The notes under the pieces: generated by a model | What the model was told of the DNA's origin: nothing | What the model saw: only the letters and a program-made list of their open reading frames with translations | The model's database searches: none | Shown: in pieces, positions 29,462 to 43,068 of the stretch | How the letters are laid out: each line of letters begins with the position of its first letter | Numbering within the stretch: position 1 is the stretch's first letter | Translations under genes and position numbers: made by a program | Source of the DNA: Chrysophaeum taylorii | Taxonomy: Eukaryota; Sar; Pelagophyceae; Pelagomonadales; Pelagomonadaceae | Direction: 5' to 3' | NCBI GenBank assembly: GCA_029834535.1 | Contig: JAQMWT010000334.1 | Location: 248,001 to 312,000 of the forward strand | DNA: 64,000 nucleotides

Positions 29462-29745
29462 TAACTAACTAACTAACTAACTAACTTCAGACCTCTCCCG
29501 AGCATGGGAGCCAGGCCGGACCGACAGGAGCCAGTCCGGAATCACGGGCCTGTAGACGAGGAGCGCCGAAAGGTCGGTCGGCGGAGAGTGACCATCAAGC
29601 TTGTCGCCATGCGACGAGGAGACCGCGATGTGACTGACAACCAACTCGTCGATAACCTTCCGTCTTCGCCCCCCGGCCATACCCCGTCCCACTGTGAACA
29701 TTCCGGCTGCCAACCGGCCCGCCCGGGAGGCGAATAGGTGCCAAC
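29462..29745 (-). mobile_element. SINE-like element with (TTAG)n tail, copy 1
   Basis: About 284 bp are nearly identical to 41744-42023 and, for the 3' part, to 34398-34594. Read on the minus strand, it ends in a (TTAG)n tail of about six units, the sign of target-primed retrotransposition. No coding capacity or clear tRNA-type promoter boxes were recognised. No flanking duplication could be defined for this copy. Confidence 0.75.
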
Positions 29746-30044
29746 CTACGCCGGGAGGGCGGATGCCCTCGCAAGGCTCAGGATTCATGAGGCACCGTCC
29801 TCCATCGCAACCATGCGGTCGGCGATCAGGGAAAAAATAATTTCGTTTTATTTCATTTTAATATCGTTTCGTTTGTATTTTTTCAATTTTCGCTTTGAAA
29901 AAAAAAATCCTTTTGGCGCGTCAGTACTTTTTTGAGAGGCGGTTGCGTCGACGAAGGCGTGGCCGCAAAAAGAGCATCGTCGCGGATCAAGGGACCTACG
30001 AATTCCGAGAATCAAGCGACGACGAATTCTTGTGCGGCACATGG
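29746..30044. other. Sequence left of the Copia insertion
   Basis: AT-rich DNA is followed, from about 29935, by an Arg/Lys-rich open stretch that runs up to the CATGG target site. It may be host coding sequence interrupted by the element, because an open frame continues at 42493. No domain was recognised. Confidence 0.4.
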
Positions 30045-30359
30045 TGCTGAGAAATCTGCTGCCTCTTACCCTTATCCGTCCGTTGAGAACGTGACCTCTT
30101 CCTTACCCTTCTTCTTCCTTTCTACACAATCAAATAGTCCTCTGATTTGTGCCTACGCTCATCATCATGGTCTAGCGCGTCCCGAGGTATCTAGCACTAT
30201 ACACTTTACCTTTCTCGTGTAGTTCTAGATGCCGCCTGTCGTGTTCTGAGGATATAGGGAACATACCTTTTCATTCCCCGAATTAACTACTTCCAGACGT
30301 TCACGATGAGACGGGATGGTTTCCCAGGTTAGTTACCACTGCTTGCTAAATGCTCTGCA
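30045..30359 (+). repeat. Copia 5' LTR
   Basis: It begins TGCTGAGAAATC, ends CTCTGCA, and pairs with 42183-42492. The TG…CA ends and the CATGG duplication just outside define it. Confidence 0.92.
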
Positions 30360-30374
30360 GGTTATGGGCCCAGG
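30360..30374 (+). promoter_or_regulatory. Primer binding site, initiator-tRNA anticodon-arm type
   Basis: The bases directly after the 5' LTR read GGTTATGGGCCCA. This is one mismatch from the complement of the eukaryotic initiator-Met tRNA anticodon arm as I recall it. Half-tRNA priming of this kind is known in Copia elements. Confidence 0.6.
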
Positions 30375-31323
30375 CGGGTCCCTGAGAAATCATGTGTTAA
30401 AACGTGCACGTAACCTATGGGTATTGGGTCGTTACCGCGCCGACCTAGCCTCGCCACGAAAACACACTTGTAAATACAACGCCATTACCACTGGGCTGTA
30501 TATAATATTTTTTGCACACGTGATCGTGTAGCCTTGTGTGCACCTGTTTTATAGCATCGTATTGTCATGTCAATGTTGATGTGTGTGTAATTGGCTAACC
30601 TGTACTCTTGCACACATGTTATGGAATATTTTGGGTACGTCCACTCGTACATTACATGGCAATGCACTTAACAAGCTCCTTGAGAGCACCAAAACGAACC
30701 AGCTGCCTGAGTGACTACGCTTAGCGACACTACTCTGGACTCACAGCTTGCACAGTCGTCATATAGACACATTTTCCATCGAAAAATCGATGAGTGTACA
30801 TAGACACCGACAGACAGACCCCCTTAGAATGTCTAGACAGTGTCAACTGCGTGACTGAACCCACAGGTTCCCCGTCAACTGCTATGGCAGAACACGCAGC
30901 ACGAGCCGCACCCAAGGCGATCACAGGTGCGGATATATTGAAGCTCGAAGCTCCTGTAGCTGAGTTTCTGAACCCTATTTTTTTTGGCATTTCACCAACG
31001 AAGCTTTCCCCCACTTACCTGATGCAGAAGTAGCTCAGCTAGCTACTGTCTGTTACGACTATGAAGTCAAGGCATTACGTCCTGAAATCAACGCTCGTTT
31101 CTTAGAAGAGGAACGAATCTTAAATCGCGCGCACCCGAAGGCATTAGCTTTCGACACTCGTGTTCGTGCCCCGGTTACCATATTTTCGTTAACTGCAGCT
31201 GACTGGCACACTTACCAGAACACGTACGCTACTTTCTTTCATACTTACTTCAATCTTGAAAGTGTTGGAAAACCGGCACTTGCGGCCTGGCCCGCCATCA
31301 ATGAGATATACAACAAAAGCTAT

Positions 31324-33423
31324 TTGCCCAACAAGGCTCGAGCTATTATGCTCATCGCCTTTAGTCACTACGAGTCTGTTACGACTACTGATGTGTCTTA
31401 TTTGAAACAGCAATTTAACTCTGTTGTTTATAATCCTAACTGGTATGTCCATGTATTTATCGAAGCTGTCCTAGCATTTAGGCAAATCTCTTACCAACTT
31501 AACCAGGAAGAGACTGACCTTCAATTCGACTTTGGCACTCTTTGCAGAAAAATCTATGAAGAGATACATCGGCATTATGCCGATAATACCAGCAACAACC
31601 GCTACGATCGTGGTTGGGTAGATTGGTGTTATATGTACGAAACCCGATCTTCATCTCGACCTGTACCAGAAGCTGAACGATTGTGTCACCCTACCAACCC
31701 AAGCTACATTTTAGAATACGCATTAGACCTTTACAATGTCGTATCAAATGGGTCGAACAAAAGACGCTTAGAACGCCCTGTTTCTTGGCAACCCTATGCC
31801 GAAGGTTTATCATCTCAACCAAAGCCAAAGTTACTCCTTACACATACTTTGGACTCATCGGACAAAAGTCTGACTCAAACTGCTAACACACTCGCCTTCA
31901 TCACTTCGTCCCAACCTGGTACATCTTCCACGTTTAATGCTAGACGCTTGCGTAACTCTAATGATGCTCGCCAGCCTTTCTCTCGCAGCGATTTATCGTA
32001 TTATCGTCCTGGTGATTCTTACGTCACCAAGAAAACTGCCGGACAGTCCCATGACCGTCCAATTTACCCCCGCACTTTTGACAGGTCCTCTCGGTCTAAC
32101 ATGAAATTATTAGATCGAACAAACCACACCTTAAACACCCTGCGAGAACAGTGTAGCGAACTCACGAAGCATGTGACAGATAATGATACCACGGCTCAGC
32201 TACAACATAATATCAACAAGTTATTTGAGACTTTGCTACAATCAGCCGATATCCTGTCAACAACATCTACTGAGGACAACAGTAGTTTACTTCGTCTAAA
32301 CGAACAGCTCATGTTTGCAGAAGACATCATTTATGATGTAGACGTTCATCTATCCTCGACCGAAAAGTCGTTAAACTACGTGGGGCCACAACACCATACT
32401 GTCGTTACTGCTCCCACCCCAACAACAACTCCTCCTACTACAAACACACAGGGCAATCCTTCCAATACTGCGTCTAACCTCTTTACCGCTTCCGCCATCT
32501 CGACTTTACCACCAGCATTATTGTCCTCGCTATCTTCACTGGTCCAATCTGCCCTCAACCTACCACCACAAGCCGAAACCAAAAGGGATGCCGATCATAC
32601 CTCTCTATCGTCATTTGACGAAAAGCACGGCATGGCTGATGAGGCTGACGAGCCATCACCACCTGTTCAGCCGATCATTATTCCACCGAATCTGCTATTG
32701 CTGAAGAATCTTCTTTACCGCCAGTCTCTCCACTACTTGCCCACATTCGGAAAAAACGCCTTCCTCACCAACTACATGAAGGTAAACAGTGTCCCTCCAC
32801 ATTGCTCTTTTCTATATTTTGACTCTTGTGCTACCATCTCATTGATGTCCACCTACGATTTCGCTATACCCAATCATATAATACCATTGGACTCTACGTA
32901 CGCTCCGATTGTTATTCAGACGGCAACAGGACAACAACGGGCATCACACATGATGTTAACACGCAACATCGTTATTCCCCTACCAGATCATCCACAAATT
33001 GGCTACGTTAAGATCGACTTCGCTTTATGTCTTCAACCAGTGCATGACCGACATCTCGCTATCCTGAGCATGCTCGAATGGAACCAGACCAATCTTACCA
33101 CCGTGTTCAACGATCGAGCTGAGCCAAAGCTCAGCGCTGTCACGAGCCGCATAGACAAAGATGTACGTATACCCATACACTATGTCGCAGCTAATTTGCC
33201 CGCTCTCCCTTGTATCACTTACAACATCGCGCGCGACAAGCGGCTGGAACTTCGCTCCCTTGCATTTCCCCTCAAGCGATACCATGAAAACAGGGAGCTA
33301 CTGGCATACTACAATTACCTACTCCAACGAGTTTTACCAGATCGGCCGTGGATTCGCCCTTTGGTTCTCAATCTTCGGAAACAGAACAAATTTGTTCAGC
33401 AAAATACGCAGCCATTAAGTTGA
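31324..33423 (+). CDS. Copia element gag-like and protease-like open frame
   Basis: This is the largest 5' open frame of the element, 699 codons. Its N-terminal two thirds are gag-like: helical and Ser/Thr-rich, with no recognised zinc knuckle. At about nucleotides 32815-33090 it has a retropepsin-like pattern (YFDSCATISLM, later HLAILSMLEW). Related open sequence extends upstream from about 30880. It is part of the retroelement, not a host gene. Confidence 0.65.
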   Translation: MPNKARAIMLIAFSHYESVTTTDVSYLKQQFNSVVYNPNWYVHVFIEAVLAFRQISYQLNQEETDLQFDFGTLCRKIYEEIHRHYADNTSNNRYDRGWVDWCYMYETRSSSRPVPEAERLCHPTNPSYILEYALDLYNVVSNGSNKRRLERPVSWQPYAEGLSSQPKPKLLLTHTLDSSDKSLTQTANTLAFITSSQPGTSSTFNARRLRNSNDARQPFSRSDLSYYRPGDSYVTKKTAGQSHDRPIYPRTFDRSSRSNMKLLDRTNHTLNTLREQCSELTKHVTDNDTTAQLQHNINKLFETLLQSADILSTTSTEDNSSLLRLNEQLMFAEDIIYDVDVHLSSTEKSLNYVGPQHHTVVTAPTPTTTPPTTNTQGNPSNTASNLFTASAISTLPPALLSSLSSLVQSALNLPPQAETKRDADHTSLSSFDEKHGMADEADEPSPPVQPIIIPPNLLLLKNLLYRQSLHYLPTFGKNAFLTNYMKVNSVPPHCSFLYFDSCATISLMSTYDFAIPNHIIPLDSTYAPIVIQTATGQQRASHMMLTRNIVIPLPDHPQIGYVKIDFALCLQPVHDRHLAILSMLEWNQTNLTTVFNDRAEPKLSAVTSRIDKDVRIPIHYVAANLPALPCITYNIARDKRLELRSLAFPLKRYHENRELLAYYNYLLQRVLPDRPWIRPLVLNLRKQNKFVQQNTQPLS

Positions 33424-33480: not shown

Positions 33481-34404
33481 ATGTTACTTTGTTCTGGTTT
33501 GTCAACTCCGGCGTTCCTGTCTCAAGCCACTAATGACTTAGGCTTAAATATCAATGTAAAAGTTGTTGTTGAGTCTGATGATACGCTTGTTCGTATGTTA
33601 CGCCACCGTTTTCCTACTGTACTATTATTTGAATCTCCCCCCGCCTTTATTAACCATCTTCACCTAATCTCACCCGAGGAAAGGCGCACATTCTATTGTG
33701 ATATAATTGAGATCACTCCTCCCTGCACAAACAGGAATTTACTCAAACAACAAAAGTCAGAAGACTTACACAGCCTGCTGGACGATTCTCTTTTCGACAG
33801 CATGCTATCTGTCATCAAGCTACTCCAGCCCTTGGTACTACTGGCTGAGATGACGCCTCCGCATAAGTACTGTCATCAAGACCACATCACAGTGGCCAAC
33901 CTTATCTATGCTACTCTTGATTACTGTGTCGATGTTGTTGATAGGTTCCCGACCTACCTATGTGGCGACTACCAATCTAGAGAAAGGTGGATATGCGTCG
34001 CCCGCAGATATTCTACTGGACCAATTAAACTATCATCGTGGCCCATCCTCCATCCACGCCCCTCCCTAAAGATCGTGGATGATCTACAAGCTATTCCCAA
34101 GCGCCTTTGGCTACCTAACCACATAACCAAAGACTGGATCCGGGTGTTCCCCGATCCTCCATACATATCCATTCCTAAAACGTTTGCACCTTACTCTCGC
34201 ACAGGTTCTGCTCAGCTTACTATGGCTGACCTTGAATCCCTCAATATGTTACTACTTCGCCTTCACTCACAACAGGCTCACGAGCAACGTACCCACTCTG
34301 TTCAACCCGAGTGTACTTACCATCAGTTGTGCTTTAAACGCTCCTCTATGGAGACCTTACCCAATGCAACACATCCTATACACGTCAATATTTTTACTAA
34401 CTAA
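33481..34404 (+). CDS. C5-cytosine DNA methyltransferase-like open frame inside the Copia element
   Basis: The frame reads like the N-terminal part of a Dcm/DNMT-type catalytic domain. A motif I-like stretch (LLCSGLSTPAFLSQ) is followed by an acidic SAM-pocket position (VVVESDD) and motif IV (CDIIEITPPCTNRN, with the PPC catalytic core). Next come a motif VI-like segment (LLQPLVLLAEMTPP) and motif VIII (GDYQSRERWICVARR). Motif IX/X-like signatures (YPTRPELIRANNH and SNALPAGTY) appear farther along at about 35,225-35,350, beyond a SINE-like insertion. The domain would methylate cytosine at carbon 5. It lies between the protease-like and integrase parts, an unusual place for cargo in Copia. Part of a probably broken element. 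Confidence 0.7.
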   Translation: MLLCSGLSTPAFLSQATNDLGLNINVKVVVESDDTLVRMLRHRFPTVLLFESPPAFINHLHLISPEERRTFYCDIIEITPPCTNRNLLKQQKSEDLHSLLDDSLFDSMLSVIKLLQPLVLLAEMTPPHKYCHQDHITVANLIYATLDYCVDVVDRFPTYLCGDYQSRERWICVARRYSTGPIKLSSWPILHPRPSLKIVDDLQAIPKRLWLPNHITKDWIRVFPDPPYISIPKTFAPYSRTGSAQLTMADLESLNMLLLRLHSQQAHEQRTHSVQPECTYHQLCFKRSSMETLPNATHPIHVNIFTN

Positions 34405-34594
34405 CTAACTAACTTCAGACCTCTCCCGAGCATGGGAGCCAGGCCGGACCGACAGGAGCCAGTCCGGAATCACGGGCCTGTAGACGAGGGGCGCCGAAAG
34501 GTGGGTCGGCGGAGAGTGATCATCAAGCTTGTCGCCATGCGACGAGGAGACCTCGATGTGACTGACAACCAACTCGTCGATAACCTTCCGTCTG
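34398..34594 (-). mobile_element. SINE-like element, copy 2, nested in the Copia element
   Basis: The 197-bp, 5'-truncated copy has its (TTAG)n tail at the left on the minus strand. It is flanked by an exact 12-bp duplication, CAATATTTTTAC (34386-34397 and 34595-34606). The duplication and 5' truncation are typical of LINE-driven insertion. It lies within the methyltransferase-like region. Confidence 0.92.
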
Positions 34595-35759
34595 CAATAT
34601 TTTTACAATCCTCTATAACGTGTTCGCAAGCATACATCCTAACTCACCCACTCCTGTGTCCTATTACATGACCGTTTTCGAAACTAACCAACCGTCACAC
34701 AGGTTATTACTTACAACCTCATCAACATCACACAACTCCTACTTCTTAACTGGTGGCCACCATTCCGACGGCAACCTCACCACAGAGAACGCCACCACCA
34801 ACCAAAAGACCCCCATCAACGCCTTTGGGAGCACGTATACGTTCACTGCTTCCGACATTCCCCGCGACCGGGACAGGTCCATATATCTGGAGCCGTTTAT
34901 GGGTTACTTGTGGATAGTCCAAGCCCTTCCCCAAGTTGGCTCCGCTACCACCTATGGCACCGCCATACAAAACCTCGTGTCCAAATGCGCTCTCGTGATG
35001 CCTGGCTGCCTTACCTACAAGGCCACCGACAACTCTTTCGATTACAAGGATTCTCTTTTCGCTCTGGAAGATCATCACCTATCTCATAGTCGCTATATAG
35101 GGTACCTTCGTGGAAGTGACCGCAAGCTCGGCTCTAAAATCCACTCAATGCTTGCTCCATTGCCAACCGTCCGAGGGTATGCCAGTATTATTTTACTCGA
35201 CCCTCGCAACGGGAAATTACGCTACCCCACTCGACCGGAGTTGATTCGTGCTAACAACCACACCAAACAACAGGAATCTTTCCTCTTGTCTCTACGCCAT
35301 GACCTTTGCTGTGACATGCTCAGCAATGCTCTGCCTGCCGGTACGTACAGCACTCTGTACAAGCACCTTTCGCTCATCGTCGCCGATATTAAATCCCTTA
35401 TGTTGGACCCTACCTTCCAACATACTGCTGCCGTGACGAAGAAATCCTATGTATCCAATTTCATGACCGTTGACCAAGCCTCCACCACGTGCAGCACAGA
35501 TATCTTGTCTTTGGCACAATCTTTTATGCTGTCTATTTCCAGCAACTGCCTGACCGAAATGTCGTTAAACTATATGTCTTCGTCCTACGAAGATACTCTC
35601 GCTACTTGTGATGATGAGGATGCACCTCCAAGTGACCCTGCTGTGCACCAGGATGACGACGCACCGCCTTCCACTGCTTTAGACACCGAACTCAAGTTCG
35701 ATGTTCGGCGCAAACGGCACATTCCCGCTCATCCAATTCCTCGTAAGTCCCTCGCACAC

Positions 35760-36985
35760 GGATCCACCGAATATCTCAATGCCAAAGAACGTGCTAATCG
35801 CTTTCACCGCGTGCATTACTGCCCCGACAACGTCGCTGCCAAGGCCCCCAACGTACTTGCTCGCCCTGGATTCTCTGCTTCGGACATACCATATCGCGAC
35901 TTATGCACCGACTGCATCGCACACAACAAGCGCCACCCGCACAAGCATATTTCAATGCGACCAAGCCTTCTTTTGAGCAAACCCACAAAGCCGGTGAAGT
36001 CTGGGCGTGCGACGGCGGCTATGTGACCATCCCATCCGAATGGGGAGGCTTCACACATATCATCGTCTTCAAGGAACTCATTTCGAAATTTCTCTTGGTG
36101 TACTTTACACGCACCACCAACGCCACGGAGTTCACTCAAGCTCTGGATTTTGTGTATGACTTCTGTCGTACACAACTCAATGTGCACATGCGCACCCTCT
36201 ACTCCGATGCATTCAAGCCTTACTTTAGCCAGCACATTACCTCCCCGTACCGCGTCGATAAGGGCATTCAACTCATTGCCTTCCCGCCGTACATGCACCA
36301 CTTTAACTTTGAAGTTGAGTCTGCCATCGGTTTCATCGCCTCCGCCTCCTCAACTCGCCTTCGTTCTCTCCTTAATGCTCACTATCGTGGCGCCAAGATC
36401 GTGGAACCCGCTATCATGTTCCCATGGGCGGTGATACACACCGTTCAAAGCTATAACCTTCTCCCGAACGCCACGCTCGAGCGCATTCATCATGCTATTC
36501 TGAGTCCGCAACAGCTACTCTACAACCAACTCAGCACTCCCCAACACGATATGCTCAAGATTTTTGGCGCTGAATGTTACCTCCTATTGGAGCCCCATGA
36601 ACACCACAAGTGGGAACCGTGCCGCCGCAAATATCTGTATCTCTGTTGCGCCAACGCACAAAACCCGCTCGTCTCCCCACGCGTCGACCATCTCGCTGAC
36701 GTCGTCCTCAACCCTGAAAACGGACAAATTCGTGTTTCGTCCAAGCTGCAATTCCTCTACATGTTGCAGCATCCTACTCCTGATCCTGAACTAGCTCCTC
36801 CGCCACACGCTCCTTCCGCGCCTTTCTCGCTCACACCCCACACCACTATGCAAGATCATGTCATTCAGAGGGGGACAAGGACTTCTCATCCTCAGAGGGG
36901 GCACTCCCCACCTCCTTCAGCTCCTCCTTCTTCGTCCCCTACTCCGGCCTCTTCTCCATCTTCTGACGCTTTTTGCACAAGATGA
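35760..36985 (+). CDS. Copia element integrase region
   Basis: An H-H-C-C zinc-binding segment (RFHRVHYCPDNV, then LCTDCIAHNKR) at about 35,800-35,930 precedes a retroviral-type integrase core (VWACDGGYVTIPSEWGGF, then LYSDAFKPYFS, then FNFEVESAIG) at about 36,000-36,340. A Pro-rich tail follows. The domain order is that of Copia pol. Confidence 0.75.
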
Positions 36986-37626
36986 CCTCATTCTTGTCCC
37001 AGGTTCCAAACAGCCTAACACTCGCAAGGCCACTTCTATGAAAACTATCCGAGCCCGGTTACAAGCGTCTACTATTGGTGCTTACAAAGCCGCTGGTGGC
37101 AAGCTCGCCGATTTCCGCTGGGATCTTCGCCACCACTTTCTTACGTTCAAGTCTCCCGCCCTCTCCGCCCTTCATCTCCGTGGTGGTATCCTCTGGTCTG
37201 CTATCTGCTCAGAGGGGGAACATGCGTTGTTAGCTCGTCTTCTTCTCCCGACTTGCCCGCTACCCGCACGTCGATGGTTACTTCGCCCACGCCAAGTGCG
37301 CATCCAGCATCCCAGCTGCAACCTAACTGCTGATGGTTCATAGCTCGTCTTTTTCTCCCGTTGCGTACTGACTTACTTGCCCGCTACCCGCACGTCGATG
37401 GTTACTTCGCCCACGCCAAGTGCGCATCCAGCATCCCAGCTGCAACCTTCTTAACTGCTGGTGGTTTACCTACGTGCCCTATTCCTCAGCCCCTTTTATC
37501 TGCGTTCACTGAACACGCTGCTGCCTTCGGCACTTCTTACAATATGCACTTACGTACCTGGCGCCGACCAGCTTTATTGATCACAACTCATCCGAGTTTG
37601 GCGCTACGTCTGCATCTCTGGCTGAC

Positions 37627-39591
37627 TTGGAGGAAAACCTTCTGGTCTCTACAGAGTTTATCACCCAGGTCTTACGTACCGACCCTACTATCCATATCCA
37701 ACTGGAATCTACTACTACTCCTACCGACGCTGTTCCCGCTTATCCCGAAGTTGCGCACACTGCCTCGACCGCAACGTCGCTAAACTATAATTCACCAGCC
37801 ACTGTTGGTCCTGACGAATATAAGGTCCAAGAAGCGGACGTTTCCATTGACGAATATAAACTTAAGTGCCTCCACGGTTTGTCGCCTGAAAACAGGCACG
37901 CCTACCTCAAGGCCATCGCCAAGGAACTCCACGACATTATCCGCTTTGGCTGCTTCAAACTTTCCTTACCCGACGGTGTCTCTCGTCCTATTGACAGCAA
38001 GATGGTGCTGAAGATTAAAACAGACTCTGCAGGCAAATACGTTAAGCACAAGGCTCGCCTCGTACTACGTGGCTTCCTAGCATCTCTTGGCGCCGATTTC
38101 TTTGGTACCTTCAGCCCCATGGCCACTATGACCGCAATCCGGGTACTACTAGCTATTGCAGCATACAAGCAATTGCCTGTCTACCATGCAGACGTCCCGA
38201 ACGCCTTCGTTCAGTCTGACATCGATGCCAATGTCTATGTTCAGTTACCAGACGGCATCAAGCTTATCGACCCCGATGACGCTAAGTACAAGGGCCGACG
38301 TCTACCGAAACTGCTGAAGTCACTTTATGGACTTAGGCAATCACCATCCCTTTGGAACAAAGAGATAGACGGCTTCTTCCGTAGCCTTGGTTACAAACGC
38401 CTGCATTCGGACTCTTGCCTATATGCTCGAGTATCCGCACATGCTAAGTTCGTCGTATGCAGTCTGTCTGTAGACGACATTGTTATTGTGTCCAATGACG
38501 ACCCTCTTCGTACTGAATTACAGGATGCCCTCCACAAACGGTATGCTGTAGAGCAGTTTGAACCTGTCCATACCCTCCTAGGCATGCGTGTGTGTCGCAC
38601 ATCTGACGGCTCCATTTCTCTGGATGTGCAAGCCAAGCTGGATGAACTCTTCGCTGATCACCCAGTCTTGCAGCAACTGACCCCGCTTAAATATCCTATG
38701 TCATCGTCCTTCAAGTATAAAGATGGCACTCCCAGCACTGAAACAGAGTTGTACATCAACTCGCACTTTGCCACCCTCCTTGGCAAGCTGGTGTTCATGC
38801 AAGTTGCCTGCAGACCTGACTTCTCGCAAGCCTTGGGCAGATGTTCGCGTGGTATGCATGCACCCACGTATGTTCACGTCCAAATGCTAGAGCATTTGCT
38901 TCGCTACCTCAAGAAGCCGGAAAACCGCTCACTTCGCCTCTGGTTTCACCCTAAAGGTAATGCCATTGAAGCTCACCTTCGCACTGTCTCCGCTAATCGA
39001 ATTGATCTATCCACTGTGGTCGACTACCAACCGCAGGATGTATCTACTGGACAGTTTGACCCCTTAGTTGCCATGGTTGACGCTGACAATGCCCCTTCCT
39101 TAGCACAGGAAGATAGGAAATCTACCACCGGGTTTGTCTTCTATCTTTTCAACTGCCTTATTGGTTGGAAAAGCAAACTTCAACCGATTGTCTCCTGCTC
39201 AACTCACGAAGCTGAGTTGATTGCCCTCAGTATTTGTGCTGATGAAGCTGTTTGGCTACGCAAGCTGCTGTTGGAACTCTCCTTTGTCGTCAACCCCACC
39301 TTCTACGTCAACAATGCTAATGGTGAGAACACCGCTGACCCTGTTGACTTTGATGACAATGACAACCCAATTGCTGAAGATATGCGCTTCATCAGAAGCC
39401 TACCTCTTTTGTCTGACAATGCTGCCGCTGTTCACACCTCTAATAACCCAGATGGGTCCTCTCGATCCAAGGCACTGTCGACCAGATGGTTCAAAATCCG
39501 TGAGTACATATCGCTTCAGAAAATACGAGTCCATCATGTTCCCGGCAAGCTGAACGTGGCGGATGGTTCTTACAAAGCCACTTGCTGCTGA
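37627..39591 (+). CDS. Copia element reverse transcriptase and RNase H
   Basis: The 654-codon frame has the Copia RT pattern: KHKARLVLRGF, YHADVPNAFVQSDI, LKSLYGLRQSPSLWN, then LSVDDIVIVSN. It is followed by a Copia RNase H (MVDADNAPSLAQEDRKSTTG, IVSCSTHEAELIALS, KIREYISLQKIRVHHVPG). These motifs place the element in the Copia superfamily. Confidence 0.93.
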   Translation: MEENLLVSTEFITQVLRTDPTIHIQLESTTTPTDAVPAYPEVAHTASTATSLNYNSPATVGPDEYKVQEADVSIDEYKLKCLHGLSPENRHAYLKAIAKELHDIIRFGCFKLSLPDGVSRPIDSKMVLKIKTDSAGKYVKHKARLVLRGFLASLGADFFGTFSPMATMTAIRVLLAIAAYKQLPVYHADVPNAFVQSDIDANVYVQLPDGIKLIDPDDAKYKGRRLPKLLKSLYGLRQSPSLWNKEIDGFFRSLGYKRLHSDSCLYARVSAHAKFVVCSLSVDDIVIVSNDDPLRTELQDALHKRYAVEQFEPVHTLLGMRVCRTSDGSISLDVQAKLDELFADHPVLQQLTPLKYPMSSSFKYKDGTPSTETELYINSHFATLLGKLVFMQVACRPDFSQALGRCSRGMHAPTYVHVQMLEHLLRYLKKPENRSLRLWFHPKGNAIEAHLRTVSANRIDLSTVVDYQPQDVSTGQFDPLVAMVDADNAPSLAQEDRKSTTGFVFYLFNCLIGWKSKLQPIVSCSTHEAELIALSICADEAVWLRKLLLELSFVVNPTFYVNNANGENTADPVDFDDNDNPIAEDMRFIRSLPLLSDNAAAVHTSNNPDGSSRSKALSTRWFKIREYISLQKIRVHHVPGKLNVADGSYKATCC

Positions 39592-39754: not shown

Positions 39755-41746
39755 GTGTCACTCATGTCTTTTTTTTGGCACTCCCGTGGCCGTGGCATCT
39801 CTCCAGTCGTTCGAAGGACAATTCCACGTTCGCTGCCCACGGCCGAGCCTTCTCCCAAGTTGGTTCACAAGCGACAACCCATAACCACTGTCACTCCTAC
39901 TACCTCCCAGGCTGCTACTGTTTCACCGACACCAGCTGAGCCTGTTTTACTACAATCCTTAACATTCCAAGATGGCCTCAACATGGATTTTACCCTGATT
40001 GAACGAGGATTCTCTCTTTTTGAGAGCTTCCGTACTCCTGCTACGCCCTTTCTCTCTTCTGTTATGCGAGCGGAAATCTCTACGGCACTCAACTCGATAT
40101 ATGAATCTGCTGACTCTTTACTGTTTGTGGAACTTACGAGCTTCATATCTATGCGCCTACCCATTACTACATTTTGGGAAGCTGCTCCTGCTATTACTTC
40201 TATTGGCTGCTACAGAGGCCCCAAACGTGAACGTTTCATCCTGTCATCCTATTGTACGCAGTGTCTCAATGACTTAGGACAGCCCACATTTCCTGCTTCT
40301 ACCACATATAATTCGAAGTCACAAGCACCTAGTGAACTCCCCACTGAAGTACTGAGTCACCTCAACACAGATGACCACAAGGAAAATTGTCATATTCCCA
40401 TCTCAACTATCACCACTAACATTTGTTGTGCTTGTCACAACACCGATCAGGCGCCCATACAACCTAACGTATGTGCACGTAATGCTCCTTCCTTCCAACC
40501 CCCCTGTAATGGATGCTCAGCCGGTCATATACGCGCAACCATCATACGCACGTATAATTTGCCAAAGGAGCTACATGTTCTCTTGACCAGGAATCTAACG
40601 CAACACTCGTCACTTGCTCATTTAGTCTTATCAGTAACCGATGCAGCCACAGATTCCGCTACTCAACTACCATTGGCACTGGATCTTCGGCTTATTACTC
40701 AGATGCACCTGGAGCATCTTAACTTTCTTGTAACGCTTGAGCGAACACAAGCTCGTAAAACTCAGGCTATGTTCAAGGCCACCAAATACCACCATGTGAT
40801 TCATACTGTTATCCAATCGTGGGTACAACACCTTGACGACTACGTATCATCCTCAGACGATACAAAGCCGCCATCACTCTTGGATGTAATGTTCGGTTCC
40901 ACCTATACTTCGGCCGAACGTCAAGACTTTATGCACTTCTCAAACACGAAATACCCCTCACTTGCACAGCATGTGTTGACCGAAATGTCATCTAACTACT
41001 CACTTCCCTCATCAGAATCTACTCTGGAAATGTCTTCGCCATCGACACACCCTGCTCCTTCTGCCTCGCCTGATGATGTCGATGCATTGCGTCAACAAGT
41101 CGAACAACTCCAGGAAACTCTTCGCCTATATATTCGCAAGGTCAACACCCTTAGCGCTGAGAATCTATCTCTGCACACAGAAATACAGGCAGCCATTGCT
41201 TCAATTACCTCCCTGGAAAACCGGCTCTTTCCTCCTACAGCCAATGCACACGTGCTGCTTGTAACACTGTTCAAGATCACAGAGCTACTGTCTCGCTTAA
41301 CGCTAACAGCTCATGATCAATATGCCGCCAACCATTCCTCCACGGACGATCACCTCCATCGTCTACGTGATAATTTGCTCTCGTGTATTCAAAGTATTCC
41401 CTTCGCATGTGAATTGGAAGACCCTTCTATCCTCTCGGATCCGTTCGCTGAGTCCAACTTTTTGGAAAACCAACTGGACACCATACAACTTGACTCACTA
41501 GTGCCATCCCTACTGAATGCTTTACTTGCACTCACGTTTCGTATGGTACCACACCTACCACACCACTCTACTATTGGCATTCACCGCCTGACAGCAGAAG
41601 CTGACGAAGACGATACCGATATCCTCGAACCAGTAACGTCCGCTACCTCAGATAGCTTTAACACACTGTCTGTCGTACCTGTGTTTCGTAATGCTCTGTT
41701 CAAAAGCGTCAAGTCGACTCTCAGCTCCACCAAGTCCAAGCCCTAA
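39755..41746 (+). CDS. Extra 3' open frame of the Copia element, function unknown
   Basis: A 663-codon frame lies between RNase H and the 3' LTR, where standard Copia elements have none. It contains a Cys/His cluster (CCACHNTDQ, CARNAP, CNGCSAGH) near nucleotides 40,425-40,530 that may bind zinc. A clear heptad-type coiled coil follows at about 41,070-41,230. No signal peptide or membrane segment suggests an envelope. I do not recognise the family; the style resembles a second gag-like protein. Confidence 0.6.
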   Translation: MSLMSFFWHSRGRGISPVVRRTIPRSLPTAEPSPKLVHKRQPITTVTPTTSQAATVSPTPAEPVLLQSLTFQDGLNMDFTLIERGFSLFESFRTPATPFLSSVMRAEISTALNSIYESADSLLFVELTSFISMRLPITTFWEAAPAITSIGCYRGPKRERFILSSYCTQCLNDLGQPTFPASTTYNSKSQAPSELPTEVLSHLNTDDHKENCHIPISTITTNICCACHNTDQAPIQPNVCARNAPSFQPPCNGCSAGHIRATIIRTYNLPKELHVLLTRNLTQHSSLAHLVLSVTDAATDSATQLPLALDLRLITQMHLEHLNFLVTLERTQARKTQAMFKATKYHHVIHTVIQSWVQHLDDYVSSSDDTKPPSLLDVMFGSTYTSAERQDFMHFSNTKYPSLAQHVLTEMSSNYSLPSSESTLEMSSPSTHPAPSASPDDVDALRQQVEQLQETLRLYIRKVNTLSAENLSLHTEIQAAIASITSLENRLFPPTANAHVLLVTLFKITELLSRLTLTAHDQYAANHSSTDDHLHRLRDNLLSCIQSIPFACELEDPSILSDPFAESNFLENQLDTIQLDSLVPSLLNALLALTFRMVPHLPHHSTIGIHRLTAEADEDDTDILEPVTSATSDSFNTLSVVPVFRNALFKSVKSTLSSTKSKP

Positions 41747-42023
41747 CTAACTAACTAACTAACTTCAGACCTCTCCCGAGCATGGGAGCCAGGCCGGACC
41801 GACAGGAGCCAGTCCGGAATCACGGGCCTGTAGACGAGGAGCGCCGAAAGGTCGGTCGGCGGAGAGTGACCATCAAGCTTGTCGCAATGCGACGAGGAGA
41901 CCGCGATGTGACTGACAACCAACTCGCCGATAACCTTCCGTCTTCGCCCCCCGGCCATACCCCGTCCCACTGCGAACGTTCCGGCTGCCAACCGGCCCGC
42001 CCGGGAGGCGAATAGGTGCCAAC
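41744..42023 (-). mobile_element. SINE-like element with (TTAG)n tail, copy 3
   Basis: About 280 bp, nearly identical to 29462-29745, with the tail at the left on the minus strand. It lies between the extra open frame and the 3' LTR. The flanking duplication is unclear (CCCTAA-like on both sides). Confidence 0.75.
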
Positions 42024-42182
42024 CCTAAGACACCCTGTTACACTCTTGATGCCTCTTATGTGACCTCTGAGAGTATCAAGACTGTATTCTCCTCCCTTTC
42101 TTTTTTTTTTCTCTTTTCTTCATCATCATCTTTCTCAAGAGATGCTCTACAGTCGCATTGCGCTTAAGACATCTCGAGGGGG

Positions 42183-42492
42183 TGCAGAGAAATCTGCTGC
42201 CTCTTACCCTTATCCGTCCGTTGAGAACGTGGTCTCTTCCTTACCCTTCTTCTTCCTTTCTACACAATCAAATAGTCCTCTGTGCCTACGCTCATCATCA
42301 TGGTCTAGCGCGCCCCGAGGTATCTAGCACTATACACTTTACCTTTCTCGTGTAGTTCTAGATGCCACCTGTCGTGTTCTGAGGATATAGGGAACATACG
42401 TTTTCATTCCCCGAATTAACTACTTCCAGACGTTCACGATGAGACGGGATGGTTTCCCAGGTGACTTACCACTGCTTGCTAAATGCTCTGCA
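42183..42492 (+). repeat. Copia 3' LTR
   Basis: It begins TGCAGAGAAATC, ends CTCTGCA, and is followed by the CATGG duplication. A purine-rich GAGGGGG tract just upstream is the likely polypurine tract. Confidence 0.92.
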
Positions 42493-43068
42493 CATGGTCG
42501 TGCACCTATTCGAAGGAGACGCAGACATGGACGGCGTCGTACTGGGCGGTTCATATTGTTGGTTGCAAGTTTACTACTGATGAGGTCAAAATCGCCGTCG
42601 CCAAGTCCACCAGTACGACGAAGACGCGGGCCTTCGTTTGCGCACTATGGAGAAGACGGCCACGGCGGAACTGGTGACGTGCGCCATGTCAGAATCGATC
42701 TGCGTCCCCTCGAAGCGAAGTACAGCCTCGAGTCCGAGCCGGCCGCGAGCAGTAAGAGTAAGCGACTTCCTCGTGCAGACGCTGAGCAACTGCCACGACG
42801 AGGACGAGCCCCATCTCGAGGCGCCGGGCGCTACGAAGACCCAGCCGCAGTCGCCGATGACGCCTCCTTCGTCGCCGCAGTGCTCGACGACGAGAGCATC
42901 ATTTCCTTCCTAGAGTTAGATTTAAGTTTTTTGCTGTTGGTTTTTGTCTATTATTGCATCATAATGGTGCTTATTTTTTAAAAGCGGCTTCTATACAATA
43001 TCAATATAAAACAAAAAAAACGATATTATATTTTTTTTCCAATATAATATATAGCGTTCATTCAAAAT
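42493..43068 (+). other. Sequence right of the Copia insertion, possible interrupted host exon
   Basis: GC-rich open sequence runs from the insertion site to about 42,915 in more than one frame, then turns into AT-rich DNA. One frame (VRHVRIDLRPLEAKYSLESE) has plausible coding composition and ends DDESIISFLELD. No domain was recognised. It may be the rest of a host gene split by the element. Confidence 0.35.

Follow-up and report, generated by a model that had tools for sequence, protein, structure and literature searches.

Methyltransferases of the C5-cytosine DNA methyltransferase (DNMT) class have been described within retrotransposons, namely in long interspersed nuclear elements (LINE) and DIRS elements of Symbiodinium and in a Gypsy element of Klebsormidium (de Mendoza et al. 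2018, PMC5890265), and that paper states that Symbiodinium Copia elements are without any DNMT domain. Here we describe a 12.4 kb Ty1/Copia long terminal repeat (LTR) retrotransposon of the pelagophyte Chrysophaeum taylorii, which lies in a stretch of 64,000 nucleotides (the window; contig JAQMWT010000334.1, positions 248,001 to 312,000) and encodes a divergent C5-cytosine methyltransferase with a complete motif set, with a protease upstream and an integrase downstream. We think it likely that this is a genuine if divergent enzyme, that it is a standing domain of pol (protease, then a stop codon, then DNMT, integrase and reverse transcriptase) in several Copia families, and that it marks the cDNA of the element. 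An earlier reading of the sequence alone (the original prediction) had pointed to dinoflagellate and charophyte precedents, and these correspond to Symbiodinium and Klebsormidium, with LINE, DIRS and Gypsy elements as the carriers and not Copia.

The published elements SymbioDIRS-Dnmt3, SymbioLINE-Dnmt and KnitGypsy-Dnmt3 (PMC5890265) resemble the present one in having a DNMT in the retrotransposon coding frame, many copies and conserved key residues, and there is purifying selection in both cases (Ka/Ks < 0.2 for the published elements and a core dN/dS of 0.10 here). The carriers differ, being DIRS, LINE and Gypsy in that paper and Copia in the present case, where the domain is placed between protease and integrase and the window enzyme is too divergent for the Pfam profile PF00145. 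DIRS elements with Dam-like adenine methylases (named in the same paper) also carry a DNA methylase, although that enzyme is structurally unrelated and the element class is a different one. A 2025 paper (PMC12344493) mentions in passing DNMT3 members in 'LTR Copia and DIRS' of streptophytes and dinoflagellates, with the 2018 paper as its reference; it names Copia as a carrier, yet the section concerned describes no algal Copia family like the present one, and the mention may be a slip, since the cited paper has Gypsy in the streptophyte. The accessible parts of PMC9998398, PMC6338049, PMC3145265 and PMC12477816 describe no Copia-borne C5 methyltransferase, and a literature search through titles, openings of abstracts and accessible passages, with subscription papers, preprints and repeat databases outside its reach, showed no such Copia families. 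Apart from the passing mention, Copia looks new as a carrier superfamily of a captured C5 methyltransferase.

The methyltransferase domain and its relatives

The domain and the parts of the coding region on either side of it are placed in the window as follows.

32821-32835, + strand, protease-like motif DSCAT, spotted by eye
33421-33423, + strand, in-frame TGA (then CTA) between the gag-protease frame and the methyltransferase-pol frame, both in the same phase
33481-34397, + strand, C5-methyltransferase part 1, with motifs I-VIII and the start of the target-recognition region
33484-33507, + strand, motif I
33562-33579, + strand, motif II
33709-33735, + strand, motif IV, EITPPCTNR, catalytic Cys at 33724-33726
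33838-33852, + strand, motif VI position, LLAEM, Glu at 33847-33849
33964-33987, + strand, motif VIII, GDYQSRER
34398-34594, inserted repeat of 197 bp that splits the methyltransferase frame, with 12-bp target-site duplications (TSDs) CAATATTTTTAC at 34386-34397 and 34595-34606
34607-35400, + strand, C5-methyltransferase part 2, with the remaining target-recognition region and motifs IX and X
35220-35258, + strand, motif IX, RYPTRPELIRANN, name assigned by eye
35319-35369, + strand, motif X, LSNALPAGTYSTLYKHL, name assigned by eye
35903-36985, + strand, integrase (rve E 0.0014, SH3_retrovirus E 5.3e-05, both under the Pfam cut-offs)
37627-39591, + strand, reverse transcriptase-RNase H frame (RVT_2, Copia type, E 3.2e-42, 145.3 bits)

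Motifs IV, VIII and IX/X and the motif VI-like segment, which the original prediction had in Dcm/DNMT order, were all located by coordinates, and its placing of the methyltransferase in a Copia element between protease-like and integrase parts agrees with the RVT_2 match and with the integrase ahead of it. The C5-methyltransferase content of the predicted region 33481-35400 also stood, but the region is not a single open stretch; because the 197-bp insertion splits the domain, the window copy is no longer able to make a whole enzyme. Other fetched copies align directly across the insertion site, passing from window position 34397 to 34595 with 12 nt of overlap. The unbroken domain spans about 575 aa, ends with motifs IX and X, and has approximately 340 aa between motifs VIII and IX. 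Motif I is degenerate (LLCSGLS), and at motif VI the window family (family 1) has AEM, with the Asn of ENV replaced by Met. The catalytic domains of M.HhaI, M.HaeIII and DNMT1/DNMT2/DNMT5 share with the window enzyme the motif order I, II, IV, VI, VIII, IX, X and, going by a low-confidence model, perhaps the core fold; the window enzyme differs from them in being only 12-21% identical (Foldseek rows), in having AEM for ENV, in the long segment between motifs VIII and IX, and in its fusion to Copia pol.

The PF00145 search proposed with the original prediction gave a divided answer, in that the window sequence itself has no match even at E 10, and matches were found for P0002, which is 39% identical and scores 23.0 bits against a cut-off of 22, and for a second Copia family of the same genome (family 2; 34.6 and 35.5 bits). 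The homology of the window domain to C5 methylases rests on such relatives. P0001 and P0002 are the sole relatives found in the protein collection, and could be further families of the same species. In a four-sequence alignment (A7) with relatives that are 38-52% identical, none of the residues examined in motifs I, II, IV, VI and VIII varies. Conservation was also scored in 20 fetched family-1 copies together with the window copy, the 20 having been picked for the presence of the domain, so that the set is uninformative on its absence elsewhere. The catalytic Cys of motif IV (C82) is present in 21/21 copies and in all four rows of A7, and the motif VI Glu (E123) and the motif VIII QxRxR residues (Q165, R167, R169) are likewise present in all 21, as are the residues examined in motifs I and II; family 2 retains ENV and deviates at motif VIII (GDVISKTRY). 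Towards the C-terminus, R515 and N546 are found in 19/19 aligned copies and E517 and P549 in 19/20, and the C-terminal ends of the family 1 and family 2 methyltransferases can be aligned at E 9e-5.

Structure prediction for the window open reading frame (ORF) gave a low-confidence model (pLDDT 47), with C5 methylases in 48 of the 50 listed Foldseek rows; the best row is a DNMT2, with DNMT1, HaeIII and HhaI close behind, and a C5-methyltransferase fold is supported to this extent. A P0001-first model matched dehydrogenases and was of no use. No significant C5 methylase was found in a PDB sequence search with the window ORF, P0001 or family 2 alone or with the A7 profile, and P0001 retrieved the C5 methylase 3g7u only at E 0.49, among DARPins. 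NCBIfam matched family 2 to dcm, but with 33.9 and 31.6 bits well short of the cut-off of 100.65, and gave nothing for family 1 or P0001; IMG/VR held no relative, and a protein search at polyprotein length returned nothing at E 0.001. Chance motifs are excluded by conservation and homology, and sequence comparison leaves it well supported that the domain is a genuine, divergent C5-methyltransferase of Copia pol.

Copies, selection, origin and target

Scoring of 129 of 1127 candidates in a genome search with the window domain gave at least 131 matches on many contigs, some of which are pieces of one copy, and there are at least 99 matches for family 2 (from 92 of 646 candidates). The original prediction had called for other copies with the domain at the same position, and these exist: copy L029 has a single 1691-aa frame with DNMT, integrase and reverse transcriptase, and family 2 (L037-L039) has, at the corresponding position, a C5 methyltransferase closer to the canonical form (LPCQ, ENV), with a 1952-aa frame in L039 that runs from protease through DNMT and integrase to reverse transcriptase and with gag in a different frame. 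Family 3, represented by one copy (L041 with L040, contig C483), has the same layout with a frame break within the domain, which is 52% identical to that of the window family. The stop and the insertion around the domain, when the window copy is taken by itself, might have pointed to a host-type methyltransferase gene lying by chance beside or inside one copy, or to an assembly chimera, but the in-frame arrangement in L029 and L039 and the many matches on separate contigs refute this, and we give it practically no credence. Of 68 scored reverse transcriptase matches, 29 are preceded at 2-8 kb by a listed methyltransferase match and 39 lack one (6 of the 39 are too close to a contig start), the listing covering 129 of the 1127 methyltransferase candidates. 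Six of these 39 were probed at the expected place; three have the domain, two (L044, L047) have other element parts, and L045 has none.

Selection was estimated from pairwise Nei-Gojobori dN/dS (ratio of means, given without confidence limits), leaving out for each domain those copies with ≤90% of codons aligned or ≤40% codon identity. The values are 0.104 for motifs I-VIII (20 copies), 0.104 for motifs IX-X (18 copies), 0.125 for integrase (14 copies) and 0.158 for reverse transcriptase (14 copies), with 0.238 for the stretch separating motifs VIII and IX (19 copies) and 0.374 for the linker (16 copies), so the enzyme core is under a constraint similar to that on integrase and reverse transcriptase. 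A domain that has lost catalysis and persists because it binds nucleic acid or helps to build the particle would fit the missing Asn of motif VI and the degenerate motif I of family 1; we nonetheless judge this quite improbable, given that the motif IV Cys, the motif VI Glu and the Gln and two Arg of motif VIII are unchanged in all the copies and in A7, and that dN/dS for motifs I-VIII is below that of the region behind them.

The methyltransferases of the three Copia families diverge in step with their reverse transcriptases and integrases. Between families 1 and 3, identity is 56% for the methyltransferase N-half, 53% for its C-end, 59% for integrase and 64% for reverse transcriptase; between families 1 and 2 the corresponding values are 19% (E 0.43, barely alignable), 26% (E 9e-5), 26% and 36%. 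One old capture fits this pattern best, and the most likely history is a single capture before the families split, followed by common descent. The host has PF00145 genes of its own, at L009:1498-2577 (DNMT2-like) and L010:1006-3537 (DNMT5-like), with the labels taken from motif reading; a light-harvesting-like gene adjoins the former and suggests a secondary-plastid alga, and the heterokont-like host of the original prediction is plausible. The element enzymes have no significant similarity to either (best E 0.026), and recent capture from such a gene is not supported. We lean somewhat towards a broader view, by which the domain belongs to an undescribed and very divergent C5-methyltransferase branch that is native to Copia pol. 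On this view the branch would go back to one capture and would have stayed between protease and integrase in Copia lineages whose reverse transcriptases share only about 35% identity, perhaps with members in other protists too (P0001, P0002), and it would serve as a permanent retroelement enzyme for marking the element's own cDNA.

The stop between gag-protease and the DNMT-pol frame is TGA in 19/21 copies, TAA in one and a gap in one, and its context is TGACTA in 13 of the 21, TGAATG or TGAATA in four, and TGACCA and TGACTG in one each; the single family-3 copy has TGA CGC where the protease region gives way to the methyltransferase. UGA followed by C, and by CUA above all, is a leaky stop, and TGAATG would suit re-initiation. 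Pol with its N-terminal DNMT may accordingly be made at a low level beyond the gag stop by readthrough or re-initiation, and either route would yield methyltransferase, integrase and reverse transcriptase together in small amounts. The enzyme would then be packaged along with reverse transcriptase and integrase and could methylate cytosines of the new cDNA, before or at integration. The element might gain in that its DNA resembles methylated host DNA, is shielded from nucleases or sensors of the host, or ends up in chromatin where it is tolerated, and cytosine methylation by the enzyme would presumably be self-serving, whether as self-marking or as evasion of silencing.

One result weighs against a strong CpG effect: copies compared with the window show C>T changes of 2.89% in CG, 2.31% in CHG and 2.75% in CHH, and these values carry no strong sign of CpG deamination. 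The observed/expected ratio for CpG is 0.92 in the element, 1.30 in each of the two flanks and 0.93-1.02 in the seven other Copia stretches computed; methylation need not be the cause, and the CpG tests are neutral overall. An RNA m5C methylase that leaves DNA untouched and modifies the tRNA primer or the genomic RNA of the element, in the manner of DNMT2 and tRNA, would fit the lack of a clear deamination signature as well as the DNMT2 in the top Foldseek row, which DNMT1, HaeIII and HhaI follow closely. The SymbioLINE DNMT that was tested, according to PMC5890265, did not methylate DNA in yeast and an RNA target was proposed. The element domain is, however, without significant similarity to the host DNMT2-like gene. 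The ~340 aa between motifs VIII and IX also suggest DNA-type target recognition, the spacing in DNMT2 being far smaller, and we consider an RNA methylase unlikely.

Other features of the window element

The remaining features of the element are as follows.

30040-30044 (left) and 42493-42497 (right), 5-bp TSD CATGG
30045-30359, + strand, 5' LTR of 315 bp, TGCTGAG...CTCTGCA, from repeat pairs and LTR-LTR alignment
30360-30377, + strand, presumed primer-binding site GGTTATGGGCCCAGGCGG, directly 3' of the 5' LTR
31324-33423, + strand, gag-protease ORF, an open frame with its 5' part unlike other copies
39755-41746, + strand, 663-aa ORF between reverse transcriptase/RNase H and the 3' LTR
42183-42492, + strand, 3' LTR of 310 bp

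LTRs with TG...CA ends and a 5-bp TSD, together with an RVT_2 reverse transcriptase and an integrase upstream of it, identify a Ty1/Copia element, the integrase models being under cut-off except for SH3_retrovirus in L040. The LTR-LTR alignment has 310 columns with 301 matches and 9 mismatches, one of them just beyond the LTR end, so the insertion is not fresh. The presumed primer-binding site we take to resemble the internal half-tRNA-iMet site of Drosophila copia. A stretch of approximately 250 nt in other copies is absent from the window copy near 30973-30985. There is no Pfam match to a protease in the gag-protease ORF, and none to RNase H, the presence of which is assumed from position.

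The 663-aa ORF has no Pfam match above cut-off, occupies the env position and contains a cysteine cluster (CCACH...C...CNGC); it has at least 72 matches in the genome (with 67 of 1259 candidates scored), many of them 660-665 aa long, and its interpretation as a second gag was not borne out by BLASTP. A perfect 74-bp direct repeat (37251-37324 and 37375-37448) lies between integrase and reverse transcriptase, near frame breaks of the window copy. A repeat of 200-350 nt with a (TAAC)n end and a GC-rich body is present at 29465-29834, 34398-34594 and 41743-42024, and also inside other element copies, with the 12-bp TSD at one site; it is perhaps a short interspersed nuclear element (SINE) or a LINE end. 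Rfam gave nothing in the window at gathering score, and no match for the inserted repeat at E 5.

Significance

Surveys by PF00145 alone can overlook such enzymes, because the window family does not match this profile. Copia joins LINE, DIRS and Gypsy as carriers, and an old capture is indicated rather than a late accident. The compact genome (a 70.8-Mb assembly) suits tests of what such an enzyme does for the retrotransposon that carries it. DNA methylation is usually a host weapon against retrotransposons, and a methyltransferase under selection in Copia pol, in three families and with more than 200 listed matches (131 and 99), indicates that the parasite itself probably gains from cytosine methylation.
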